Below are positions 23,106-26,123 of a stretch of DNA of 64,000 nucleotides, in pieces. Each line of letters opens with the position of its first letter. The first letter of the stretch is position 1. The DNA is from Lentisphaerae bacterium ADurb.Bin242 (GTDB taxonomy: Bacteria; Verrucomicrobiota; Lentisphaeria; Victivallales; UBA1829), in assembly GCA_002069785.1 (NCBI GenBank), contig MWCA01000020.1, forward strand, positions 1-64,000, given 5' to 3'. Position numbers and translations under genes: made by a program. A model generated the notes under the pieces. It did no database searches and was not told the DNA's origin. It saw nothing but the letters and a program-made list of their open reading frames with translations.

Positions 23106-24576
23106 ATCCTGCCTGATCCTCTTTGCCGCCCTGCTCTGGGTTTCCGCTTCCGGGCAGACGGTCTCCTTGAAGGTGATCCAGACGACCGATGTCCACGGCT
23201 CCATCGAACAGGGAAAATTCGGGCGCATCGCAACGCTCATCCGGCAGGAATGCAAGGCCGCGGGCGGGTCCCCCAACACGGTACTGGCCGACTGCGGGGA
23301 CCTGATGCAGGGCTCGTTTCCCATGACGCTGGACCGCGGAGGCGTCATGATCCGCGCGCTGAACCTCCTTTCCTATGATGTTTTCGTGCCCGGAAATCAT
23401 GACTTTGAATTCGGGGCCGACTCCCTCCGGGATCATCTGAAGCAGTTCAGGGGAATCGTCTGCGCCCTCAACCTCGACTGGAAGGACACTCCTGTCCGGC
23501 GGTGGACCCTTCTGAAAAAAAGCGGGCTGGACGTCGCCGTGATCGGCATCACGTTTCCGGCGCTGGATACGCTGGTGTCCGGAGATCAACTGAAATCGGT
23601 GCGCCTCCTCGACGCGGAAAAGGAAATGGCGCGGATCATGCCGGAAGTGATGAACGTCCGGCCCGTCGTGATCATTCTCGCCGTCCATGCCGGCGAATAC
23701 ACCCCGGTTTCCGGCCGTCTCACGCTCACGCAGCTGATCCGGAAATATCCGCAGATCGATCTGGTCCTGGGCGGACACACCCACCAGGACATCCCGGGAA
23801 AGAGTCTCGGCGGACACGCCTGGTTCCTCCAGGCGCCCGCCCACGCCGGGGGGATTGCCGTCGCGGACATCCTTTACGATTCCCGGGAACGCCGGGTCGT
23901 TTCCCTCCAGAGCCGTCTGCTCCTCCTCGCCGACCGTGAAACCGCCCCCCTTCCGGAAATGGAAAAAGTCTTCTCGGAACAGCTGAAACGTTCCGCCCGG
24001 ACCGGCGCGGAACAGATCGCCCGTCTTCCGTTTCCGCTCGAACCGCTTTCCGGGACGGAACATTCCAACCGCCTGACCGGGCTGTTCGCAAACACCATTC
24101 ACGAATATACCGGCGCACCGGTCGTCTTTCACGGCACCCACGGGAAATTCGCGCAGGCTCCCGGCCCGCTGAACCGCCGGCAACTGTTCGCCCTGACGCC
24201 GTATGAAGACAAAATCGGCGTGCTGAAACTGACGCCGTCCGAATGCCGCATGGTCCTGGAGGAACAGCATGCAAAAAAACGGAGCGGCATGTTTCAGGCG
24301 CCTTCCGGAATCGTTTATTCCACGGGACGCGGCGGCCGGATCAAAGGGTCCCTGCGCCTGAAAGGAGAATCCGGCGACTGGACGGATGAAACACGGACGG
24401 TCGCCTGTGCGTTCACCACCTTTGCCCTGGCCGGAGCGGGAGGCCGTTTCCCGCTTCTCCGCTCTCTCGCGGAGCTGCATGCCGTCGAGGTTTACCCGGA
24501 CGGCATCCGGACCGTTCTGGAAAATCATCTGCGCAAAAATCATCCGATCCAAACACATCCCATCGAAAGGAAATGA
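23086..24576 (+). CDS. Exported 5'-nucleotidase/metallophosphatase family protein
   Basis: The start at 23086 gives a clear signal peptide (MSTSFRKSCLILFAALLWVS). The calcineurin-like metallophosphatase domain carries TTDVHGSIEQG, ADCGDLMQGS, VPGNHDFEFG and LGGHTHQD. The C-terminal ~200 residues form the nucleotidase specificity domain (QLFALTPYEDKIGVLKLTPSE). The 496-residue protein probably dephosphorylates nucleotides or related esters in the periplasm. It overlaps the DUF89 gene at its start and a lipoprotein gene at its end. Confidence 0.9.
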   Translation: MSTSFRKSCLILFAALLWVSASGQTVSLKVIQTTDVHGSIEQGKFGRIATLIRQECKAAGGSPNTVLADCGDLMQGSFPMTLDRGGVMIRALNLLSYDVFVPGNHDFEFGADSLRDHLKQFRGIVCALNLDWKDTPVRRWTLLKKSGLDVAVIGITFPALDTLVSGDQLKSVRLLDAEKEMARIMPEVMNVRPVVIILAVHAGEYTPVSGRLTLTQLIRKYPQIDLVLGGHTHQDIPGKSLGGHAWFLQAPAHAGGIAVADILYDSRERRVVSLQSRLLLLADRETAPLPEMEKVFSEQLKRSARTGAEQIARLPFPLEPLSGTEHSNRLTGLFANTIHEYTGAPVVFHGTHGKFAQAPGPLNRRQLFALTPYEDKIGVLKLTPSECRMVLEEQHAKKRSGMFQAPSGIVYSTGRGGRIKGSLRLKGESGDWTDETRTVACAFTTFALAGAGGRFPLLRSLAELHAVEVYPDGIRTVLENHLRKNHPIQTHPIERK

Positions 24577-24995
24577 AAATGAATAAAATCACATGGTGCT
24601 GTCTGCTCGCGGCTCTGCTTTGTTCCTGTTCGCGTGAATATATTTTCGCGGAAAAAGACCGTCTGACCCCGCAGGAGGAAGAGGCGGTCATCGTTTATGT
24701 CTGCAAGTTCCTCCGCCACGACAAGAAAATCAAACTCACCCCGGAGGAGCGTTCGATCATCCAGGACCAGAAACCGGATTTCGCCGTCCAATACCGGGGA
24801 TACAAGGAAGGGCTGCTGTCCATCCGCTGGAAACTCCCGAACTACCGGGTCCTTCTGCTTCAACGAACCGGGAAGCTTCTTGCGGAAGAACGGGCGGACT
24901 GGGTCATCCGGATCATTTCCGACACTGCCAGCGGGAAACTGCCGAAAGATTCTTTCGGTTCCCAAGGGGAAGACCTCTCTCTGCCGCCTCTTTGA
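24573..24995 (+). CDS. Small predicted lipoprotein of unknown function
   Basis: This 140-residue protein begins with a lipoprotein signal, ITWCCLLAALLCSC, with the lipobox Cys at about residue 20. The rest is hydrophilic with mixed charge (LTPQEEEAVIVYVCKFLRHD) and has no motif that I recognise. The start overlaps the stop of the nucleotidase gene (ATGA); an ATG at 24579 is an alternative. It is probably co-translated with and anchored near the periplasmic nucleotidase. Confidence 0.7.
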   Translation: MKMNKITWCCLLAALLCSCSREYIFAEKDRLTPQEEEAVIVYVCKFLRHDKKIKLTPEERSIIQDQKPDFAVQYRGYKEGLLSIRWKLPNYRVLLLQRTGKLLAEERADWVIRIISDTASGKLPKDSFGSQGEDLSLPPL

Positions 24996-25063: not shown

Positions 25064-25091
25064 TTGACAAATCGGACTTGTGTGCTAGAGT
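25064..25091 (+). promoter_or_regulatory. Strong sigma-70 promoter of a small RNA
   Basis: TTGACA (25064-25069), a 16-bp spacer ending in TGTGC, and TAGAGT (25086-25091) form a near-consensus promoter. Transcription would start near 25099, exactly where the structured RNA begins. Confidence 0.75.
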
Positions 25092-25098
25092 AAGACTC

Positions 25099-25202
25099 AG
25101 GAAGCAGGCAGACGGGCTCCGAATAAGAAATGAATCAAGGCCGCAAAGCCTTAAAGGTACATTGTAAGTTGGAGCGAACAGTTCCCCCTGCTTCCGTTTT
25201 TT
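25099..25202 (+). ncRNA. Probable small structured RNA, about 104 nt, rod-like
   Basis: No ORF is present. The 5' end GGAAGCAGG (25100-25108) pairs perfectly with CCTGCTTCC (25187-25195), which is followed at once by GTTTTTT, so the molecule closes on itself and terminates. Inside, GCTCC (25116-25120) pairs with GGAGC (25171-25175). A large central bubble follows, then an apical hairpin AAGGC-CGCAAA-GCCTT (25137-25152). The closing stem, central bubble and end hairpin resemble a shortened 6S RNA, but a lineage-specific sRNA is equally possible. It lies upstream of a prepilin-like gene that has its own promoter. Confidence 0.6.
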
Positions 25203-25324
25203 ATTCCCTCTGTATTTTCCCCGCCATTCCCCGACCCGATGGATTCCATGCGGAAGTCGTGTTCCAACAGGGGATCGTCTGCTTCGGATGTCCAACAAAA
25301 ATCAAAAATAGGTTGCTTTGCCTA

Positions 25325-25352
25325 TTGCAAAACAAACATTTCTGTTTATAAT
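25325..25352 (+). promoter_or_regulatory. Promoter of the prepilin-like gene
   Basis: TTGCAA (25325-25330), a 16-bp spacer and TATAAT (25347-25352). An inverted repeat AATAGG (25307-25312) / CCTATT (25321-25326) touches the -35 box and may be an operator. The 25203-25324 stretch holds nothing else I can identify. Confidence 0.7.
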
Positions 25353-25394: not shown

Positions 25395-26123
25395 ATGAAA
25401 ACGTCAATATCGGAACGGGAGGGTGCGCATTCGGGCCCGGTTTCAGGAAGGCGGGCGGGGAAATTTACATTGGTGGAACTTCTTGTCGTCATCTCGATCA
25501 TCGCGATCATCGCCGCCTTGCTGATGCCCGCGCTGGGCAAAGCGCGGGAAGCCGCGCGGAAAGCTTTCTGCCTGAGCCATCTCAAGGATATGGCGGTTTC
25601 CAGCCTGATGTATGCGGACAACAACAAGGAATACTTTCTCCCCGGTCACCGCTACAACTCCGGTGAGGCGAAAGACTTCTGGTGGTCCATTCTCACCCAG
25701 ATCGTGTATCCGAAGGTCATCGAAAAAAGTTACGGAATCCCCATGGACAGTTATTACAAGACGTTCCAATGTCCCTCGGAAAAGATTCCGACCGGGGGAG
25801 ACCCCTCCTTTCAATACACCCACTATGGGGTTAACGTCAAATTCACGCATTACAATGCTCCGGTAAGGAAACTGTCCACCGCCTTCAAACCGTCTTCCGG
25901 CGTGGTGTATATGGACTCGAATATCCGCACCAGCTATGCGGTCACGGATGAAAATGCGGCCAGCGAACGGCACGGAACCGGCCGTGCGAACACGTCGTAT
26001 CTGGACGGCCACTGCGACTTCAGAATCCTGGGCAGGGACCCCGCCCGCGACGAGAAACTGAAGGAAGGATACCGTTCCCCTTGCCTCAACGGCATCGGAA
26101 CCTGTGCGACCAACTGCAACTGA
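25395..26123 (+). CDS. Prepilin-type N-terminal motif protein with H-X10-DG tail
   Basis: This is a 242-residue protein. The prepilin motif [20 protein letters not shown] begins unusually late, after ~23 residues of hydrophilic leader ([16 protein letters not shown]). The usual leader is 6-10 residues, so processing may differ or the true start may lie closer to the motif. The C-terminal part has [14 protein letters not shown] of the H-X9/10-DG type. GGAGGAGG lies seven bases before the ATG at 25395. It has its own promoter downstream of the small RNA and is followed by the AT-rich island. Confidence 0.85.

Follow-up and report, generated by a model that had tools for sequence, protein, structure and literature searches.

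A small RNA gene with its own promoter and terminator

Between a small lipoprotein-like gene (24573-24995) and a pilin-like gene that starts near 25396 lies a gene for a structured RNA of about 104 nt. Here and below, the window is the whole 64-kb stretch of DNA that was analysed. The features of the locus are as follows.

25064-25069, + strand: -35 element TTGACA, read from the sequence
25086-25091, + strand: -10 element TAGAGT, preceded by TG, read from the sequence, with a promoter at the same place in homologues
25097-25202, + strand: RNA gene, ~104 nt, matched by model R1 at 25097-25201; putative 5' end at about 25097-25099 and putative 3' end within the T run
25100-25108, + strand: 5' strand of the closing stem, GGAAGCAGG, with double changes in 8 of 9 pairs across 73 sequences
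25116-25122, + strand: 5' strand of the P2 helix, GCUCCGA, from folding and covariation; CUCUGA in most relatives
25123-25136, + strand: 5' side of the central bubble, AUAAGAAAUGAAUC, marked by its conservation; function putative
25137-25152, + strand: apical hairpin AAGGC-CGCAAA-GCCUU, with strong covariation
25153-25168, + strand: 3' side of the central bubble, a putative '-10'-like face read from the sequence
25169-25175, + strand: 3' strand of the P2 helix, UUGGAGC, from folding and covariation
25187-25195, + strand: 3' strand of the closing stem, CCUGCUUCC, with covariation
25197-25202, + strand: tract of six T after a G, a predicted terminator jointly with the closing stem

The two promoter elements are separated by a 16-nt spacer, agree with the consensus at 10 of 12 positions and carry a TG ahead of the -10; the pair TTGACA-16-TAGAGT occurs only once in the window and in none of 100 shuffles. 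An earlier note, made from the letters of this DNA, had read a near-consensus promoter here, leading into a segment whose ends pair for 9 bp and run into a T-tract and whose interior holds a second stem, a bubble and an apical hairpin. All of these parts are present as described, with 25100-25108 pairing with 25187-25195 ahead of the six T. A further promoter-like site just downstream of the RNA, TTGCAA-16-TATAAT at 25325-25352, probably serves the pilin-like gene. An automated terminator scan that takes loops of 3-8 only did not list the RNA's terminator site, because the closing stem here encloses the entire RNA.

Promoter and terminator are both conserved among homologues. Of 98 homologues, 88 have a TTG/TANNNT promoter pair where one is expected, against 3.6% in shuffles and 1.2% at random positions of the same loci, and 81 have TTTT at the terminator site; since homologous copies are related, they do not count as independent cases. 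Together, these comparisons of sequence strongly support an independent gene with a conserved sigma-70-type promoter and a T run. Strong expression of the RNA is putative, being suggested by the quality of its promoter.

Covariation supports a rod-shaped fold

Positions 25064-25202 fold with an MFE of -41.6 kcal/mol, and shuffled versions average -33.4 (z -2.3; equalled by 2 of 200 shuffles). Folding energy by itself is thus modest, and it is the comparative evidence that settles that the RNA is real. In an alignment of 73 homologues fitted to a covariance model, 93.3% of cells hold standard pairs, double-sided changes occur in 18 of 23 base pairs, and 165 double-change cells are observed versus 42 ± 5 in shuffles. 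The stems are therefore conserved in relatives, with the covariation that the earlier note had proposed looking for. The 9-bp closing stem and the apical hairpin also emerge when 48 sequences are aligned by MAFFT without reference to structure, with double changes in 12 of 15 predicted pairs. RNAalifold missed P2 on this widest structure-free alignment, probably through misalignment, as the length of the 3' bubble is variable; P2 is recovered on a 14-sequence structure-free alignment, and its support comes chiefly from the model-guided one. The resulting rod has a covarying closing stem, a central bubble and an apical arm, in the order found in 6S RNA. The 5' strand of the bubble is very highly conserved in sequence (GAAYAA...GCAUC), and the 3' side varies among relatives in both length and sequence.

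The RNA is found almost throughout the Lentisphaeria, where the 6S model finds nothing

BLASTN against 60 relatives gave matches in 15 further genomes, mostly of the same family. Model R1 was built from a 14-sequence alignment of the oriented loci, from which L022 was excluded because its match spans the promoter side only, and it matched 85 of 120 relatives, in nearly every genome with a single full-length hit. In one draw of 289 genomes, covariance model R2 matched 90 of 99 Lentisphaeria genomes and none of 190 other Verrucomicrobiota, a split that is our own tally from the genomes' kinship classification; model matches are 91-110 nt long, with a median of 100 (98 homologues). A scan of named genomes with the core pattern returned records labelled Lentisphaeria, Lentisphaerae or Victivallales, unlabelled bacteria and one Kiritimatiellota record, which appears to correspond to a genome classed as a relative from the same order. 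Judged by these searches, the RNA is a real gene that is class-wide, or nearly so, in Lentisphaeria, usually with one copy per genome. Covariation, class-wide conservation and the conserved promoter and terminator together bear out the structured, independently transcribed small RNA that the earlier note had proposed.

In the same 289 genomes the Rfam 6S model, RF00013, behaved in the opposite way, matching 0 of 99 Lentisphaeria and 147 of 190 others. Because so many 6S genes were detected outside the class, the absence within it is not easily blamed on the general sensitivity of RF00013. This model also gave no match in the 120 relatives, at the locus or elsewhere in the source genome, and nothing above cut-off in 29 Lentisphaeria genomes searched with laxer filters; the two weak matches that these filters let through (E 0.7 and 3) resemble chance hits. 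A clear 6S gene elsewhere, which the earlier note had named as a finding that would count against its reading, thus did not appear.

Tandem copies of the RNA were seen in two genomes, at G057:C1:367906-368005 and 368085-368183 and at 1895-1993 and 2001-2098 of locus L128; a further genome, G281, holds two copies, each on a contig of its own. The Bacillus cereus group is likewise known to have 6S genes in tandem (PMC7726162). Sister-class 6S genes (loci L145-L164) often lie between an upstream pheT and a downstream rarA/mgsA-like ATPase gene; this arrangement was not seen around the Lentisphaeria RNA, whose neighbours change between families. At locus L106 (G037), pheT lies divergently on the opposite strand, with its start about 189 bases ahead of the RNA; this adjacency is at about chance level and may be either a remnant of the gene order of the sister classes or a coincidence.

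Comparison with ordinary 6S RNA

The great majority of bacteria are reported to have 6S RNA, a brake on RNA polymerase. The Lentisphaeria RNA shares with it the order of closing stem, P2 helix, bubble and apical arm, and shares with the 6S of its sister classes an apical arm that opens with a G-rich strand. Both are products of their own gene, usually one per genome, within the same phylum and with complementary distributions, so that in being widespread and single the RNA resembles 6S. In the Rfam alignment of sister 6S, P2 and the bubble edge lie at CUCUGACCC, with UCAGAG as partner, followed by a bubble strand of 16-18 nt and an apical arm starting GGGAGC. The corresponding parts of the Lentisphaeria RNA are CUCUGAACA(A)...GCAUC, a hairpin starting (A/G)(A/G)G, the 3' bubble and, in more distant families, CAGAG. 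A CUGA-type motif is accordingly present at the P2/bubble edge in each case: cCuGAgCC in RF00013, CUCUGACCC in sister 6S, and CUCUGAACA or CUCCGAAUA here. Among 20 copies from distant families, CUCUGA and CAGAG stand beside the bubble in 13 and 14, respectively; at the matching place in 20 sister-class 6S genes, drawn from the stronger RF00013 matches and not at random, the counts are 10 and about 9.

The differences are equally clear. The RNA has a median length of about 100 nt, versus about 182 nt for sister 6S, and so falls well below the roughly 180-200 nt of 6S; the earlier note was right to call it short. The apical arm takes up about 80 nt in 6S and 16-18 nt here, as a hairpin of 5-6 bp, and a '-35'-like region is absent. 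The closing stem is shorter than that of sister 6S and different in sequence, and the sequence conservation of the 5' bubble strand is unusual for 6S. Rfam, searched at gathering and permissive thresholds, gave no convincing family at the locus and nothing at the RNA in 17 divergent homologous loci, and the 6S and SRP models, which the earlier note had suggested searching, had no match at the RNA. Run on sister-class 6S loci with filters off, R2 gave chance matches only, none of them at the 6S gene. Because RF00013 and R2 each miss the other's genes, homology to 6S is not demonstrated by model, and for this reason we leave the RNA outside RF00013. No description of a 6S RNA from Lentisphaeria was found in the openly accessible literature.

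The earlier note's suggestion of a 6S-like RNA therefore stands in part. Its support is indirect and comes from the arrangement of the parts, from the P2 motif held in common and, most of all, from the way in which this RNA and RF00013 exclude each other across genomes; a match to the 6S family itself did not materialise.

Other reduced or lineage-specific 6S systems

Ms1, about 300 nt long, is a longer RNA than the one described here. Found in Actinobacteria, it binds core polymerase (PMC4191392, PMC9130861) and, like the Lentisphaeria RNA, is a rod resembling 6S that stands in for it within one lineage. 6S-Flavo RNA (RF01685) of Bacteroidetes (PMC2864571) offers another likeness, as a lineage-specific short 6S of 108 model positions that required its own model. 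RF01685 had no match at the locus under permissive filters and none in 61 genomes, the latter a weak search in which the genome-level control was also silent.

The closest parallel in plan is a laboratory construct, 6S78, a 78-nt B. subtilis 6S-1 without the '-35' region, which binds polymerase about 10-fold more weakly but still produces pRNA and is released in vitro (PMC8876501). Common to 6S78 and the Lentisphaeria RNA is a bubble between two short helical arms and no '-35' region; the latter would be a natural, class-wide form. It is because of this reduced plan that we think the RNA acts as a 6S.

A proposed 6S-type mechanism, and its rivals

Our best reading is that the RNA works like 6S yet falls outside RF00013. 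That it is the stripped-down 6S-type RNA of Lentisphaeria, predicted to bind polymerase and to be released by pRNA synthesis, we consider probable. In 6S, the 3' bubble contains a '-10'-like region and the apical arm a '-35'-like one; as pRNA is made, P2 is unwound and the RNA is set free (PMC8876501). By analogy, the short rod of Lentisphaeria would imitate an open promoter, with the closing stem and P2 in the role of downstream DNA, the bubble as a mimic of the melted -10 region, and the 5-6 bp hairpin instead of the long '-35' arm of ordinary 6S. During slow growth the RNA would bind the active site of RNA polymerase carrying the housekeeping sigma and block promoters. When nucleotides return, the polymerase would start at U25124, the conserved pyrimidine of the 5' bubble strand, and make a predicted pRNA 5'-AUUCGGAGCCCGUC...; synthesis would pass through P2, and the opened RNA would fall off. 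We infer polymerase binding, pRNA synthesis and the physiological role alike.

At the proposed start, the 88 copies with the motif have C in 71, U in 17 and a purine in none; with a pyrimidine on the template, the pRNA would begin with a purine. The pRNA of E. coli starts AUCGGCUC and that of B. subtilis 6S-1 starts GUUCGGUC. Refolding with the pRNA site blocked gave new 3'-side hairpins in several sequences and no consistent helix, and we therefore do not claim a release hairpin.

The alternative that weighs most is a class-wide RNA of another kind, either an sRNA that would base-pair through CUCUGAAC(AA) and GCAUC or an RNA with some protein partner besides the sigma-70 holoenzyme, much as Ms1 partners core polymerase; in that case 6S would have been lost from Lentisphaeria or would be present unrecognised. 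That the 5' bubble strand is so highly conserved, that RF00013 fails and that synteny with sister 6S is lacking would all fit such an RNA. It would have to coincide, however, with a replacement of 6S that follows the class boundary exactly among the genomes drawn, and with agreement in part order and P2 motif; moreover, the most conserved CUC sits in a covarying helix, unlike a free seed. We regard it as an unlikely, if serious, explanation. In a related form, which strikes us as rather improbable, an unrelated housekeeping RNA replaced 6S and would act through its strictly conserved single-stranded 5' bubble on a form of polymerase, a protein or mRNAs. A divergent true 6S may also exist elsewhere in Lentisphaeria.

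Two further identities have next to nothing in their favour. A length near 100 nt and the string GGAAGCAGGC, reminiscent of the SRP apical motif, recall a divergent small SRP (4.5S) RNA, but this string sits in the outer stem and covaries; RF00169 (bacterial small SRP RNA) does not match the locus, 29 of 31 genomes searched do have a match to the SRP model, and the source genome has a separate SRP gene (G000:C175:3469-3565, 48.8 bits), on which grounds we reject this exceedingly improbable identity. A mechanical ORF of 73 aa (25130-25351) overlaps the RNA and could suggest part of a coding gene, with an mRNA leader or a chance hairpin and terminator as variants. Frame-breaking indels amid a structure conserved class-wide, the RNA's own promoter and terminator and its varying neighbours speak against coding or leader function, and covariation and class-wide distribution refute this group of readings, to which we give a negligible probability.

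Significance

The RNA is absent from Rfam, and if it is a 6S, it fills the Lentisphaeria gap with a defined alignment and model. The 6S-type reading, if true, would also mean a natural, class-wide 6S without the '-35' arm; to our knowledge, a 6S lacking this arm is otherwise known only as a truncated laboratory construct. The need for '-35'-like arm contacts in 6S function would then become directly testable.
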